Source: Pseudomonadota bacterium
Lineage (GTDB): Bacteria; Desulfobacterota; Binatia; Binatales; Binataceae
Assembly: GCA_021325355.1 (NCBI GenBank)
Contig: JAJPHI010000023.1
Span: 124,001 to 188,000 of the forward strand
Length of the DNA stretch: 64,000 nucleotides
Reading direction: 5' to 3'
The number at the start of each line of letters is the position of its first letter. The stretch's first letter is position 1. The position numbers and the translations under genes were made by a program. Below, in pieces: positions 4,673 through 20,083 of the stretch. Below the pieces are notes generated by a model. It did no database searches and was not told the origin of the DNA. It saw only the letters and a program-made list of their open reading frames with translations.

Positions 4673-6037
<1,365 letters not shown>

Positions 6038-14649: not shown

Positions 14650-15882
14650 TTAGCGACCGACGACGAAGGCGCAGCTCGTGGTGCCGCTGCCACCGATATT
14701 CAGCATCGCGAAGCGCTTTGCGCCTTCCACCTGGTACTCGCCGGCGCGCTGCGTCACCTGGCGATAACAGTCGAGCATCTGGCGTACGCCGGTCGCGCCC
14801 ACCGGATGACCGGCGCCGATAAGACCGCCGCTCGGATTGATCGGCAGTTTGCCGCCCATCTCGATGACGCCTTCCTCGATCGCCTTCCACGATTCGCCGG
14901 GCCCGGTCAGCCCGAAATGATCAATCGCCATGTATTCCGAGGTCGTGAAGCAGTCGTGGGTCTCGATGCCGTCGACGTCGAAGACCGAGGCCACACCGGC
15001 GCGCCGGAAGGCGTCGAGGATCGCCTGCCGCGTATGCGGCAGCACGTAGGGGTTGTCCTTGCTCTCGGCCACCTTGGCGTCGAATTCCATCCGCGCCGTA
15101 TGATGACCCCAGCCGAGGATGCGCGGCAGATCGTCGAGCTTGATGCCGCGTCGCCGGGCATAGTCGGCCGCGAACTTCTCGGCGGCGAGGAACAGCACGG
15201 TGCAGCCATCGGTCACCTGTGAACAATCGCCGACGCGGATTCTTCCCGCGAGCACCTGCTGAAACTTGCTCTTCTGGTTCGGATCGCTCTCCGCCCGCGG
15301 CCATCCGCGGGTCTGGGCCAGCGGATTGCGGCGCGCGTTCGAATAATTGATCGACGAGATGTGGGCGAGATGCTCGTCCTTCAGGCCGAAGCGCTTGTCA
15401 TACTCATCGCCGAGCCGGCCGAACAGCCGCGGGAACGGATAGTCCTTGCCCTTGCACTCCCGCTCGTACCATCCCGCGGTGCCGAGAAAATCGCCGCCGG
15501 TCGCGGTATCGACCGTCTTCATCTGCTCGAGTCCGATGACGGCGGCGCAGTCGTAGCGGCCGGCTTCGAGATCGGCCGAAGCCGCCAGAATCGCTATCGA
15601 CCCCGAGGCGCAGGCGGCTTCGTGGCGGCTGGTCGGGAGACCGGCGAAAGCGGGATCCAGTTCGAGGAAAAAGGCGCCGAGCTGGCCCTGCTTCGCGTAC
15701 AGTTCGGCGGCGAAGTTGCCGAAATGAGCGGTGCCGATATCGCGGGGTTCGAGCCCGGTGGCGGTCAATGCCTCCGTGGTGGTCTCGCGCAAGACCTCGA
15801 CGAAGTGCTTGCCCTCCTTGTTCCAGTTGCGGGCGAAGTCGCTCTGCGCGCCACCGAGGATATAAACGGGTCCTTGTGCCAT
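14650..15882 (-). CDS. Thiolase-family acetyl-CoA acyltransferase (SCP-x type)
   Basis: 410 residues from ATG 15882, preceded by AAGGAGC; a start at 15939 lacks a ribosome site. Active-site Cys lies in HEAACASGS, the His in IGAGHPVGATG, and the third catalytic region is HDCFTTSE with a C-terminal GGSGTTSCAFV. The pattern fits thiolases related to sterol-carrier-protein X, which cleave 3-oxoacyl-CoA in fatty-acid or sterol side-chain breakdown. The DUF35 partner that often follows such genes is not adjacent. Other acyl-CoA genes lie at 38-41 kb. Confidence 0.85.
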   Translation of the reverse strand: MAQGPVYILGGAQSDFARNWNKEGKHFVEVLRETTTEALTATGLEPRDIGTAHFGNFAAELYAKQGQLGAFFLELDPAFAGLPTSRHEAACASGSIAILAASADLEAGRYDCAAVIGLEQMKTVDTATGGDFLGTAGWYERECKGKDYPFPRLFGRLGDEYDKRFGLKDEHLAHISSINYSNARRNPLAQTRGWPRAESDPNQKSKFQQVLAGRIRVGDCSQVTDGCTVLFLAAEKFAADYARRRGIKLDDLPRILGWGHHTARMEFDAKVAESKDNPYVLPHTRQAILDAFRRAGVASVFDVDGIETHDCFTTSEYMAIDHFGLTGPGESWKAIEEGVIEMGGKLPINPSGGLIGAGHPVGATGVRQMLDCYRQVTQRAGEYQVEGAKRFAMLNIGGSGTTSCAFVVGR

Positions 15883-16050
15883 GTCCGACGCTCCTTGAAT
15901 GAGGCCAATGCGCCGGCTCGAGCATCGCGCCGCCGGCACTGAAGGTTTCTAATTAACGATATAGCACAAGCGCCATCTATCGAAACTGTGGCCGCCCGGG
16001 CGACCGCGGCGTCGAATCAAGGGGCGCTCGCGGCGTTCGCGGGCGGCGGC

Positions 16051-18345
16051 CTATGCGGCCGCGAGCGGCACGCGCGCAAGATGGCCGTCGAGCTCGACGA
16101 GAAGCTGACTTAGGCGCTGCCAGGATTCGATTTCCGCGAGGATTGCGCGGCGCGGCGCGATCTTCCATTCGCCAATCTGGGCGAAGCCATCGGCCGCGAT
16201 CTGGTCGGCAAAGCTCGCCACCTGCTGGACGAGCTCCTCGGCGGAGTGACTCGCGGTGAGCGCCACGGCGGCAGTGCTCGAGAGGTAGTCGGGGCCTTCA
16301 AAGTGATCGAGCCAACCCTGCAGGTGTTCCCGGACGGCGCCTTCGGCGGCGCGGCGCGCCGCCCGTGCTGCTGCCGCCAGCGGCGGCGTCGGGACCTCGA
16401 GGCGATCGCGATCAATCGATCCGAGCCGATACGCGATCCGGCGCAGGGTGCCGACCGCATCGACCATCGCGGCGGGATCGACCCTGGCGGCTGAGCCTTC
16501 CAATGCCGCATCGTCGGCCACCGAGAGCATCTCGGCCTGCGCCGTGGTGATCGCGGTCAGTTCGGCATTCATCCGCGCGGCGTCGGCGGCGGCGGCCGAT
16601 CCGGGGACGAGTTCGAGGGTTGCGCGCAGAATTTTGCGCAGCCGCGGCGCCAGCGCTTCGTGCGCGTATTCGGGAGTGATGACCGTCGCCGCAACCGTCG
16701 CGATGAGGGTGCCGAGAGCCACCGCCCACAGGCGCCAGAGCGGTTCTTCGATCCTGAGCGCCGGACCGAGGCCGATGAAAATCAACAGGAAAGTGGTGCC
16801 GATCTGTTTGCCCGCATAGGCCGTGCGCCCGCTGCCGAGCCCGCTGTAGCCGGAAACCAGCAGCACCGCGAAGATCGCGATCAGGTACGAGGGCAGGGAG
16901 GTGAAGTTCGGCGCGACGACAATAATCGCGGCGATGGTCAGGGCGCCGCCGACGATCACTCCTGCCAGCCTGAGGATCATCTTGCGCAGCGAGGCGCCAT
17001 AGGTCGGCATCACGGTGACAATGATCGTGGTCAGGATTGAAGAGAGGTCGGCGCGATGGGCGGTCAGGCCGGTGATGAACCCGGCGATGGTCGCGACGGC
17101 CACCTTTGCGCTGTAGCGCACCGCTTCGTAATCGAGCGGGAGCAGCGGTCGCGGCGGCGTCGCCGCGGGCAGCGCGAGGTCGGGATCGCCCAGCGTCGCC
17201 TGCAGCGGACGTTCGACCAGGCTCGCGATCGCGCGAAGGCTCTGATGATACGCAGCGAGGTTGGCGACTTCGGCCGCGCCGCGCGACGCATAGTCGGGCC
17301 GGGCGGCGACGATTCGAGCCTGGAGCGCGGCAAGAGGCGGATCGACGAGCGCGATGACCGCCGGCGGTGCCGTCAAATCCCCCGCCTGCAGCCGCGGCAC
17401 TACCGACTTCCTGAGCTCATCCAGGGCCTGAGCGAGAGCCGCGACGGCCTGCGCGAATTCCGGCCGCAACTCGGTTCGTAATTCGCGCGGAACGGCCGCG
17501 ACGGCCAGGATTATCATCCGGTCGATCGCGTTGTGGAGACGAGCCTCGCGGGTGATGGCGGCGAGCAGGAAGGCCCGACGTTGCGGACTCAGCCCCTCGA
17601 GCGTGGCCCGCGTCAGCAGCTCGAGCCGCGTGGGGAGGTCGGACGTAAGGGGCACGATTCGCGACACGGGCGTCGGCGCAAAGTAGAGCCGGTCGGCTTC
17701 GCGGATACGACCGGCGGAGCGTCCGAGGCTTTCGGCCAAAGACGCGATCAGCACGGCTTCGGCCGGGTCGGGCCAGAGCACTTGGTCGAAGACGATGACC
17801 GTCAGCACCGCGACCACGGCGCCGGCGAAAAGCTCAGCGGAGGCCCAACCGAAATTTGCCGGATCAAAAACCGCTCCGTAGCAGGTGTCGAGCACTACGA
17901 CCTGCACGATCAGGACGAGGCCGCCGAGGTTGCGCAGTCGGTTGAGATAGCTGGTCAAGCCGACGAAGCTCGCGATAAACGCGAGCATCAGCCATGGTGC
18001 TTCGACCAGCATCCCGGCCAGCGGAAAGGCCAGCGCGACGGTCGCGCCGAGCGCGCCGAGGAAGGCGAGGCCCTTGCGCAGCGAGAGCATCGCCTGCGGC
18101 GTGCCGACGAGGATCCAGATAATGTAAACGCCGAGCACCGAATCGATGTGCATCGCGGCTTCGAAACCGGCGCAGAGGGTTGCAATGGTCGCCATCCGCA
18201 GCGACAGCCGGGCGCGGCGCGGATTCCAGGCGAGCTCGGATTGGAGCAGCGCCGGGAGCGAGTCGAAGCCCAGCGCGAAGCGTCGAGCCACGACCGGGTG
18301 AGGGCGGCGCAGGCGCGACGCGAAGGTGGGGGCGGCGGAGGCCAC
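16051..18345 (-). CDS. FUSC-family inner-membrane transporter (MdtO/AaeB-like)
   Basis: 764 residues from a GTG start at 18345 with no clear ribosome site, so the first residues are tentative. Two hydrophobic blocks (about 55-190 and 405-555), each followed by a long soluble region, give the duplicated FUSC layout; the C-terminal ~200 residues are helical and Ala-rich. FUSC proteins pair with HlyD-type adaptors and outer membrane factors to export aromatic acids or drugs. Its likely partners (HlyD/YtcA and outer membrane factor genes) sit at 49-52 kb rather than next to it. Confidence 0.85.
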   Translation of the reverse strand: MASAAPTFASRLRRPHPVVARRFALGFDSLPALLQSELAWNPRRARLSLRMATIATLCAGFEAAMHIDSVLGVYIIWILVGTPQAMLSLRKGLAFLGALGATVALAFPLAGMLVEAPWLMLAFIASFVGLTSYLNRLRNLGGLVLIVQVVVLDTCYGAVFDPANFGWASAELFAGAVVAVLTVIVFDQVLWPDPAEAVLIASLAESLGRSAGRIREADRLYFAPTPVSRIVPLTSDLPTRLELLTRATLEGLSPQRRAFLLAAITREARLHNAIDRMIILAVAAVPRELRTELRPEFAQAVAALAQALDELRKSVVPRLQAGDLTAPPAVIALVDPPLAALQARIVAARPDYASRGAAEVANLAAYHQSLRAIASLVERPLQATLGDPDLALPAATPPRPLLPLDYEAVRYSAKVAVATIAGFITGLTAHRADLSSILTTIIVTVMPTYGASLRKMILRLAGVIVGGALTIAAIIVVAPNFTSLPSYLIAIFAVLLVSGYSGLGSGRTAYAGKQIGTTFLLIFIGLGPALRIEEPLWRLWAVALGTLIATVAATVITPEYAHEALAPRLRKILRATLELVPGSAAAADAARMNAELTAITTAQAEMLSVADDAALEGSAARVDPAAMVDAVGTLRRIAYRLGSIDRDRLEVPTPPLAAAARAARRAAEGAVREHLQGWLDHFEGPDYLSSTAAVALTASHSAEELVQQVASFADQIAADGFAQIGEWKIAPRRAILAEIESWQRLSQLLVELDGHLARVPLAAA

Positions 18346-18461
18346 GGCTAGCGAGGGCAGCCGATCATGGTTGAGCGGCCGACGTGTCCAGGTCGGGCGG
18401 AGTGGGGCGGCGCAGCGAGAGTAGACAACGGCGCCGAGGAAGTGTAACGCCGAAGATACAA

Positions 18462-18477
18462 TGTTTCACGTGAAACC
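18462..18477. promoter_or_regulatory. parS: parS site 1 (ParB centromere sequence)
   Basis: TGTTTCACGTGAAACC matches the near-universal bacterial chromosomal parS consensus TGTTTCACGTGAAACA at 15 of 16 positions. ParB binds this palindrome and spreads to organise origin segregation with ParA and SMC. The second copy starts exactly 30 bp further on. Confidence 0.85.
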
Positions 18478-18487
18478 TTCGAAGCAA

Positions 18488-18511
18488 CTGATGTTTCACG
18501 TGAAACATCAG
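18488..18511. promoter_or_regulatory. parS: parS site 2, perfect and extended to 24 bp
   Basis: The core 18492-18507 is TGTTTCACGTGAAACA, an exact match to the parS consensus. The dyad continues perfectly for four more bases on each side (CTGA...TCAG), a 24-bp palindrome. Two adjacent parS sites are expected close to a chromosome origin. Confidence 0.9.
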
Positions 18512-18533
18512 AGTAGGTTTTGGTAATCGATAG

Positions 18534-18562
18534 ATATCCACAGGAAATTTCCGCTATGCACA
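18534..18562 (+). promoter_or_regulatory. Two near-consensus DnaA boxes
   Basis: ATATCCACA at 18534-18542 and CTATGCACA at 18554-18562 each match the DnaA box TTATNCACA at all but the first base, same orientation, 20 bp (two helical turns) apart, each followed by GG. They lie 23 bp right of the second parS in the AT-rich patch. Two boxes are few for a complete origin. Confidence 0.5.
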
Positions 18563-18858
18563 GGTATTTTTGATGCGTGGCCGCGACGACGGTTGACACG
18601 CCGGTAGCGGCGATGATCGGGTGAGCGAGGTGCGCGGTCAAGCCGTGGCGACATTCCGGTGGAGTCGCGGCCGGCGATGCCGATTCGGCGCGGGTGCGCG
18701 GCAGGGCGGCGGGTCGTGACGGTTCGGGCGCGGCGGCGGGGTGGCGCGCGGCGGAGGACGGTCGCGAGCATTTTGCAGAATCCGGGTGGGTTGACTGAGG
18801 CGAGTCGGCAGGCCAAACTGAATCAAACGCCCGAGTGGGCCCAAGGCTGCATTGTAGG

Positions 18859-18897
18859 TCTGGCGCCTCGCGTTAAGCGGGGACCAGGCTTTTTTTT
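18859..18897 (+). terminator. Rho-independent terminator with no upstream gene
   Basis: TCTGG and CCTCGC pair with GCGGGG and CCAGG around a GTTAA loop (small internal bulge, G-T pairs tolerated), followed directly by eight T residues at 18890-18897. It points rightward and stops 43 nt before the aminotransferase start. As no plus-strand protein gene precedes it, it may end a small RNA or act as an attenuator in the leader of the serine operon. Confidence 0.6.
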
Positions 18898-18940
18898 GGC
18901 ATCGCGGCCGCATCGTAACGAAAGATAGGACGTGCCTCCC

Positions 18941-20083
18941 GTGAAGAAATACCTTTTTACTCCGGGGCCGGCGCCGGTACCGCCCGAGGTTTTGCTCGAG
19001 ATGGCGCAGCCGCTGATCCATCATCGCACGCCGGAGTTCAGCGTGGTGCTGGATAGCGCGCGGGAGCGGATGAAGCCGCTGTACGGCACGCGCCAGGAAG
19101 TGATTCTGCTGACGGCGAGCGGTACCGGGGCGATGGAGGCAGCGGTGACCAACCTCCTGCAGCCCGGTGAGGAGGCGATTTTCGTCAACGGCGGGAAGTT
19201 TGGCGAGCGCTGGGGCAAGCTGATCGAGGCGCACGGCGGGGTGGCGCGCGAAATCAAGGTCGAATGGGGCCGCGCGGTGCGGGTCGAACAGGTCGCCGAG
19301 GCGTTGCGGGCGTATCCTCGGGCGCGGGCGCTCTTCGTGCAGGCCAGCGAGACTTCGAGCTGCGCGCTGCATCCGATTGAGCCGTTGGGCGCGCTCACGC
19401 GCGAGCGCGACGTGATGCTGGTGGTGGACGGTATCACGTCGGTTGGCGTGATCGAGCAGAAGATGGACGCGTGGGGTATCGACGCGCTGGTGACGGGAAG
19501 TCAGAAGGCGCTGATGCTGCCGCCGGGGCTCGCGATGATCGCGCTATCGGAGCGGGCGCTGGAGCGGATGAAGAAGAATCGCGCGCCGCGCTACTACTTT
19601 GATCTGAGACGCGAGCTCAAGGCGCAGTGCGAGGAGCATATCACGGCCTACACGCCGGCGGTCGGCCTGGTGTTCGGTCTGCGCAAGTCGCTCGAACTGA
19701 TTCTCGCCGAAGGTCTGCCGCAGGTGTTCGCGCGCCACGAGCTGATGGCGCGGGCGACGCGGGCGGCGGGGGTTGCGCTCGGGCTCGGGCTGATCGCGCC
19801 GGACAATCCGGCGCCGGGGGTGACCGGTCTGCTGGCGCCGGAGGGACTCGATACCGGCAAGGTGGTGCGCGCGATGCGTGATCGGCTGGGGGTATCGGTC
19901 CAGGGCGGGCAGGATCAGATGAAAGGGCGGCTGATCCGGATTGGCCATATGGGTCACATGGGGCCGCTCGATGTGCTGGTGGTGATCGGCGCCCTGGAGA
20001 TCGCGCTGAAGCAACTCGGCCATCGCTTTGCGAGCGGGGCGGGGGTGGCGGCGGCGCAGGCTGTAATCGAGAGCTGGAACTGA
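18941..20083 (+). CDS. Class V PLP aminotransferase (phosphoserine/alanine-glyoxylate type)
   Basis: 380 residues from GTG 18941 (AGGA 10 nt upstream); GTG 18932 would add three residues. KYLFTPGPAPVPPEVL is the class V N-terminal signature, HHRTPEF the substrate region, and the PLP Lys lies in GSQKALMLPPG. TASGTGAMEAAV binds the cofactor phosphate. The gene lies 5 bp before serA, so conversion of 3-phosphohydroxypyruvate to phosphoserine is the best guess; the sequence is of the branch that also contains alanine-glyoxylate aminotransferases, not the enterobacterial SerC form. Confidence 0.8.
   Translation: MKKYLFTPGPAPVPPEVLLEMAQPLIHHRTPEFSVVLDSARERMKPLYGTRQEVILLTASGTGAMEAAVTNLLQPGEEAIFVNGGKFGERWGKLIEAHGGVAREIKVEWGRAVRVEQVAEALRAYPRARALFVQASETSSCALHPIEPLGALTRERDVMLVVDGITSVGVIEQKMDAWGIDALVTGSQKALMLPPGLAMIALSERALERMKKNRAPRYYFDLRRELKAQCEEHITAYTPAVGLVFGLRKSLELILAEGLPQVFARHELMARATRAAGVALGLGLIAPDNPAPGVTGLLAPEGLDTGKVVRAMRDRLGVSVQGGQDQMKGRLIRIGHMGHMGPLDVLVVIGALEIALKQLGHRFASGAGVAAAQAVIESWN

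Follow-up and report, generated by a model that had tools for sequence, protein, structure and literature searches.

GC-skew shifts at scattered parS sites hint at multiple replication starts on one bacterial chromosome

Background

According to the textbook rule, a bacterial chromosome has one origin of replication. An exception has been described in the cyanobacteria Synechocystis 6803 and Nostoc 7120, for which the cited account reports asynchronous, DnaA-independent replication from multiple origins (PMC7198777). The single-origin view and the uses made of GC skew are laid out in the relevant parts of PMC4468827 and PMC7111523, and an account of putative double origins states that, as of 2015, evidence was lacking for any bacterial chromosome that makes use of two functional origins (PMC4403523). 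A search of titles and abstract openings in the open-access literature rendered no description of dispersed parS sites located at GC-skew switches.

The locus reported here is a pair of parS sites next to two DnaA-box-like sequences, which an initial annotation had put forward as a candidate replication origin or centromere. It lies in the window, i.e. the whole stretch of 64,000 nucleotides analysed, corresponding to C32:124001-188000 of genome G000 (3.36 Mb in 35 contigs, C1 and so on).

Results

Architecture of the element and its surroundings

The perfect parS of the initial annotation, TGTTTCACGTGAAACA at 18492-18507, was recovered with 0 mismatches as the centre of a perfect palindrome of exactly 24 bp (18488-18511), and the second copy, TGTTTCACGTGAAACC at 18462-18477 on the forward strand, indeed matches at 15 of 16 positions (1 mismatch to TGTTTCACGTGAAACA). 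These are the only two matches in the window with up to 3 mismatches, for which the chance mean is 0.08, and two matches were reached in 0 of 100 shuffles. On one side of the pair, and on the forward strand, follow box 1 (ATATCCACAGGAAATT, 18534-18549, with TCCACAGG starting at 18537, 29 bp past parS), box 2 (CTATGCACAGGTAT, 18554-18567, 20 bp past box 1 and followed by a T run) and a TTGACA (18593-18598, 56 bp past box 1). Both boxes are DnaA-box-like. As annotated, ATATCCACA at 18534 and CTATGCACA at 18554 each match 8 of the 9 positions of the DnaA box consensus used for scoring, TTATNCACA, in the same orientation and 20 bp apart. Perfect copies of TTATNCACA are scarcely enriched in G000 (18 vs 13 in the control), and the chance expectation of box 1 in its flank is 0.0001 with a leave-one-out matrix. 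The AT-rich island also holds, with 37 of 60 positions A/T in the line 18481-18540; the best 120-bp stretch of the element reaches 62% A+T vs 34% for the window, a value equalled by 0 of the window's 120-mers sampled every 10 bp. A classical oriC carries at least three clustered DnaA boxes and a minus-to-plus GC-skew switch; the element has two boxes, each 8/9, and does lie at such a switch. As for a chromosomal parS centromere, the 16-bp parS palindrome is accompanied by a chromosomal parAB in G000.

The genes at both sides diverge from the element as described, with a FUSC-like transporter to the left (16051-18345, reverse strand) and a class-V aminotransferase, serC-like, to the right (18932-20083, forward strand), the latter followed by serA-like and purA-like genes (named by eye). 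The serC-like gene has a leader of its own, recognised by eye at 18791-18897 on the forward strand as TTGACT, a hairpin and a T8 run, which is located 3' of the parS element and is distinct from it. This arrangement is conserved in the family: a TTGAC promoter is followed by a hairpin (GGTCTGGCG...ACCAGG), and the hairpin by a T8 run. The last two were found by eye in 18 of 19 loci, and the leader could possibly be an attenuator or leader RNA; Rfam rendered no match within the window at gathering thresholds. In the comparison at serC, 38 relatives had a match and 29 of them yielded a locus, one (L120) unparsed; none of the 28 relatives read has a parS in the 600 bp that precede serC. The gene to the left of serC differs between G000 and its relative G001, as it does at other loci, and is too variable to inform on breakpoints.

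The main origin region lies elsewhere

Genes dnaA, dnaN, parA, parB and a gidA-like gene (the last identified by eye) are all located on contig C19, and G000 matches a single ParB_N and a single DnaA. The dnaA-dnaN gap contains three DnaA boxes with up to 1 mismatch, and a cluster of nine parS sites occupies C19:3737-7268 at parAB. The contigs being unordered, cumulative skew was followed within contigs; the minimum for the first 60 kb of C19 falls at 5958, within the parAB/parS cluster and away from dnaA. Because these replication and segregation genes and the nine clustered parS are on C19, the window site is not a classical oriC, and it can be discarded as the only or main oriC. The statement that no dnaA, dnaN, parA, parB or gidA adjoins the element was thus right, while the proposal that the element is the oriC fails, since the skew minimum, the DnaA boxes and the replication genes are on C19. 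The GC skew of the main cluster is gone by ca. 130 kb on C19. As a side observation, skew drops to about -0.20 towards the end of C20 on its right side (460-479 kb), and C19 begins with a skew of -0.15; the two contig ends may lie next to each other across the main origin cluster.

A module shared by dispersed parS loci

With up to 2 mismatches, G000 contains 24 parS sites, nine clustered at parAB and 15 in 12 dispersed loci on C1, C6, C14 (2), C19, C20 (3), C25 (2), C26 and C32. A spread of parS sites had been regarded beforehand as evidence against an origin in the window; the sites are indeed spread, over 8 of the 35 contigs, but the spread sites themselves show origin-like skew (see below). 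At 11 of the 12 dispersed loci, one side of parS carries, after 24-30 bp, a box 1 of sequence TCCMCARR, and TTGAC lies 56 bp from box 1 in nine copies and 57 bp in the other two. Box 2 (CACARG-like, by eye) is located 20-22 bp past box 1; its conservation is weaker than that of box 1, and in the copies at C20:407 kb and C14:375 kb it can scarcely be made out. The sequence between these motifs is unrelated among the copies. Each box 1 was placed correctly by a matrix made from the other ten, with a chance per flank of at most 0.0006 against a background that includes the elements themselves. When 1.53 Mb, or 46% of the genome, was searched with a profile built from the 11 copies, the same 11 places were recovered with E <= 1e-7, and no other hit had a better E than 0.25. 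The dispersed parS without the box module is C14:187420, ca. 200 bp upstream of smc, and the main C19 cluster is also devoid of it.

The dispersed loci occupy divergent, tandem and convergent intergenic gaps (gene calls were made with our own dicodon script, not with a published gene finder), and it is therefore not evident that the module belongs to a promoter. A sigma-70 promoter at TTGAC(A) was considered and is not supported: inspection of the 11 copies by eye showed no -10 following TTGAC. At four of the 11 (C19:175 kb, C1, C14:375 kb and C25:181 kb) TTGAC faces the 3' end of the next gene.

GC skew switches at parS

In the window, blind jump maxima were located at 15601, 16501, 16601 or 17001, depending on window size, and the local cumulative minimum at 15528, which together define a switch zone at 15500-18600. 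The change is thus spread over ca. 3 kb to the left of the element, largely beneath the FUSC gene, with skew values on C32 of -0.07 and -0.01 over the 12 kb to the left and +0.19 over the 6 kb to the right, and is among the largest upward jumps found. The initial proposal therefore gains support as an origin-like centromere element, in that the site has a skew switch and shares it with other dispersed parS, though not as the oriC. At each of the 12 dispersed parS loci, read over 10-13 kb or, in the case of the window, over 64 kb, skew is higher to the right of parS than to the left.

Contig-scale profiles were obtained for 1.48 Mb, comprising C19, C20 and parts of C14, C17, C25 and C32. The nine top upward jumps in this sequence correspond to the nine parS loci present in it, eight dispersed and the main cluster, with values of 0.116-0.255 followed by 0.093 for the next one (8-kb windows, 136 peaks; the start of C19 limits the jump measured at the main cluster). 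At the eight dispersed sites the jump averaged 0.175, and overlapping samples taken farther than 20 kb from them averaged -0.011 (sd 0.028); 0 of 200000 draws of eight positions reached the value of the sites. The largest jump, 0.255, is that of C14:187420, near smc (locus L009, ca. 6421), where parS is present and the DnaA-box module is absent. Falls are shallower than rises, the largest downward jump being 0.106 against 0.243 for the largest upward one on the same measure. On C20, for instance, skew goes from -0.116 (95-100 kb) through -0.032 to +0.108 in the parS bin and +0.159 at 110-115 kb, and is zero by ca. 165 kb; to the right of C20:265 kb it is lost within ca. 10 kb. Overall, the parS-linked skew decays over ca. 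10-130 kb. Contig C17, which is free of parS, has skew near zero (220 of 277 kb read). Several switches are found per replicon, as would be expected of multiple origins: three on C20, two on C25 and two on C19. At C20:407 kb the jump is small and four-fold-degenerate sites show no change of sign, their values being negative on both sides of parS, and the cumulative curve lacks a minimum at both C20:265 kb and C20:407 kb. A secondary rise of 0.077 was also noticed at ca. 193.4 kb of C32 (L165, near 5300), with no parS within 3 mismatches.

Gene orientation can be ruled out as the cause of the skew by four-fold-degenerate sites in both orientations. Within 20 kb, skew at these sites changes upward in forward-strand and in reverse-strand genes at eight of eight loci (16 of 16 comparisons). 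In six sites pooled, the strand departing from parS is G-rich in both gene orientations, with an excess of 0.24 and 0.28 at 5-10 kb, of which 0.01 and 0.04 are left by 60-75 kb. Co-directional sequence makes up 0.37-0.56 of the coding DNA, depending on the distance bin. The orientation of genes within 40 kb of the sites is unbiased, with 228 co-directional vs 237 head-on in a count that leaves out C14 and the final 79 kb of C20. For tRNA genes the count is one co-directional vs seven head-on, five of the seven in one cluster. A polar guiding motif was likewise discarded as the cause, there being no dominant oligomer and the bias being broad over sequence contexts. Both the sign of the skew and, by eye, the trinucleotide pattern are like those to the right of the parAB/dnaA cluster.

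Relatives

In 57 genomes, exact parS cores number 1-2 in most and 0 in ten; G001, G015, G021, G023, G026, G032 and G033 are rich in parS, with 8-19 cores, and G000 has 24. A composite pattern was matched in G000 only among the 57 genomes, and in one of the two of its genus; of the 11 matches in G000, C19:6119 is a site of the main cluster without the module, and the C6 copy was missed by one base. The module profile (R1) had no match at E <= 1 in 60 parS loci of relatives. In a named collection, which may leave out records very close to the genome of the window, the composite had one match, in a Clostridia MAG (L222), that we take as chance. By eye, many copies in G021 (L032-L047) share the surround GAAGGAGAGGCGAAGAT-parS-ATCTTCGCGGTCTGTTTGCCGTGAAA and many in G015/G026 (L052-L068) share parS-ATTTTTTAGTTCAGGAGAACAAATCACGAA, the surrounds differing by genus.

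Skew at the parS sites of relatives is mixed. In G021, two of four profiled parS show jumps (0.111 and 0.117) and the other two do not (-0.019 and -0.069); this genome also has a fall of 0.155, and its largest jump, a sharp one of 0.231 at C31:65.8 kb (L215, near 5800), is in a parS-free gap upstream of rpsO-/pnp-like genes and looks like an origin switch in spite of the missing parS. Of the three parS profiled in G001, one gives a clear rise (0.123) and two weak ones (0.045 and 0.039). The two dispersed parS profiled in G015 lack jumps (0.010 and 0.017). No skew switch was seen at the single parS by parA-like/gidA-like genes in the stretches sampled from G005 (16 stretches, 698 kb) and G014 (4 stretches). 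We note that skew is small throughout these stretches (L182-L201), from -0.06 to +0.05, even at parA-gidA. Regarding the direction of the change, the parS loci of relatives were positive in 13 of 16 cases in G021, 5 of 6 in G001, 3 of 3 in G007 and in G033, 6 of 10 in G015, 4 of 7 in G026 and in G023, and 1 of 2 in G017; these tallies include main-cluster loci and drop six of the 60 relatives' loci, which have an arm shorter than 1.2 kb. By position, the exact 14-mer core of parS is not found at smc in G001 or G021. Skew at parS thus behaves differently from one relative to another: G000 has the strongest signal, which does not amount to a rule of the family.

Discussion

Many start points as a reading of the skew

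The skew and the architecture together give good support to an origin-like, parS-centred element that recurs in this genome. Transcription, discarded here as the cause, and replication polarity are the known sources of strand-specific composition, and sharp rises with gradual falls fit stochastic initiation at fixed sites with variable termination; secondary initiation is for this reason the reading that we favour. We regard it as about as likely as not that the window site belongs to a numerous set of parS-coupled sites at which replication has secondary starts. As a wider and more tentative proposal, the chromosome might be replicated stochastically from at least a dozen dispersed fused centromere-origins, with dnaA, parAB and smc retained. 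It is possible also, though we would not go as far as calling it probable, that such a centromere-origin, made up of parS and usually a tandem DnaA-box module, couples initiation with the loading of ParB and condensin in a eukaryote-like manner.

Under such a scheme, replication forks would leave each parS-linked site bidirectionally, and would do so in an appreciable share of replication rounds, with ParB expected to load on parS and DnaA expected to bind the two tandem boxes. The fixed 56-bp module of box 1, box 2 and TTGAC would determine how an unwinding complex is arranged within the AT-rich stretch, TTGAC having a presumed role in it. Forks from adjacent sites would then meet at variable places, and this would leave a skew that climbs steeply at each site and, for the most part, declines gradually from one site to the next. 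The DnaA step is the weakest part of the proposal, and what happens at parS may count for more than the boxes. The skew does not require them, because both C14:187420 and the main cluster have it without the module. The flat profile of C17 also counts against multiple initiation, as efficient origins in small number would not by themselves be expected to leave it, and skew minima can occur without origins (PMC4403523). The unbiased orientation of the genes, the mixed behaviour of relatives, the weak signal at C20:265 kb and C20:407 kb and the imperfect (8/9) match of the boxes speak against it as well.

Alternative explanations

The chief rival, which we consider unlikely, is that the asymmetry spreads from parS through ParB and SMC, either by condensin translocation or by encounters of forks with condensin, the C19 origin being the sole start. 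In its favour, what the jumps have in common is parS and not the module, as C14:187420 and the main cluster illustrate, and replication alone gives no switch at the single-parS parA-gidA regions of G005 and G014. On the other hand, parS alone is insufficient for a switch in G005, G014 and G015, the sign and (by eye) the context pattern of the skew resemble those found beside dnaA, and the bias is broad over contexts instead of following a single polar motif. Moreover, we know of no mechanism by which condensin would make strand-specific mutations.

It could also be the case, albeit rather improbably, that the loci are ordinary dispersed centromere or DnaA-titration sites, of the kind of the Caulobacter parS or of datA/DARS, in a chromosome with a single origin and with a skew of unrelated cause, the module serving to recruit DnaA and ParB either for segregation or for the control of DnaA. 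Occurrence of the module only beside parS in the 1.53 Mb searched would agree with this, as would the DnaA boxes described next to parS in Caulobacter in the account consulted (PMC6399470), but it predicts neither a skew switch at each of the nine profiled parS loci nor the loss of polarity within ca. 130 kb of the main origin.

A very doubtful explanation is that parS is borne on lineage-specific dispersed intergenic repeats (MITE/REP-like) copied by transposition, of which the module would be a remnant. Dispersed copies share, by eye, a surround of their own in the parS-rich genera, and the parS of the window is missing upstream of serC in the 28 relatives. However, G000 keeps only the positions and spacings of the motifs, with unrelated spacers and no parS-less copy in 1.53 Mb, and transposition itself does not make a skew that fades across tens of kb. 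A repeat origin of parS would be compatible with secondary initiation from these sites, and does not exclude it.

Finally, an artefact of assembly or rearrangement, with joins or inversions at palindromes flipping the skew, is most improbable, for in spite of the skew flips that misassembly at inverted repeats can produce according to the cited text (PMC7111523), and of the different gene found left of serC in G000 and G001, the repeats are of merely 16-24 bp, the skew fades on both sides, and the equally sharp falls that inversions predict are absent from G000 (G021 has one, of 0.155).

Comparison with known systems

About a dozen short sites defined by sequence are provided here as candidates, each of them individually testable. 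The cyanobacterial exception is not tied to sequence elements in the account available. The same sites permit replication polarity, centromere function and condensin loading to be compared. Even if no initiation took place at them, a parS-centred gradient of strand-specific composition would constitute an unexplained effect.

The cyanobacteria named above and G000 have in common that skew is irregular along a bacterial chromosome and that start sites are numerous, the latter presumed in the case of G000. As far as the cited account goes, initiation in these cyanobacteria is tied to no sequence element, whereas the switches of G000 are marked by parS and mostly by DnaA-like boxes, and dnaA is present (PMC7198777). 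The Caulobacter parS-Cori region, as it is presented in PMC6399470, resembles G000 in its DnaA-box-like sites beside parS, but it is one locus near a single origin, while G000 has a dozen dispersed copies and a rigid module. Putative double origins, as treated in the pertinent part of Gao 2015 (PMC4403523), share with G000 the additional skew-switch sites with DnaA boxes; they are, however, two per chromosome, located by replication-related genes and provided with at least three boxes, and G000 has about a dozen sites with two boxes or none, the window site being without adjoining replication genes. The sharp rises in skew or polarity followed by gradual falls are a likeness to multi-origin archaea, for which PMC7111523 gives part of the picture, and to humans, the comparison resting largely on general knowledge. 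Archaea and humans use Orc1/Cdc6 or ORC, whereas the signals of G000, as judged from its sequence, are those of the bacterial ParB and DnaA.
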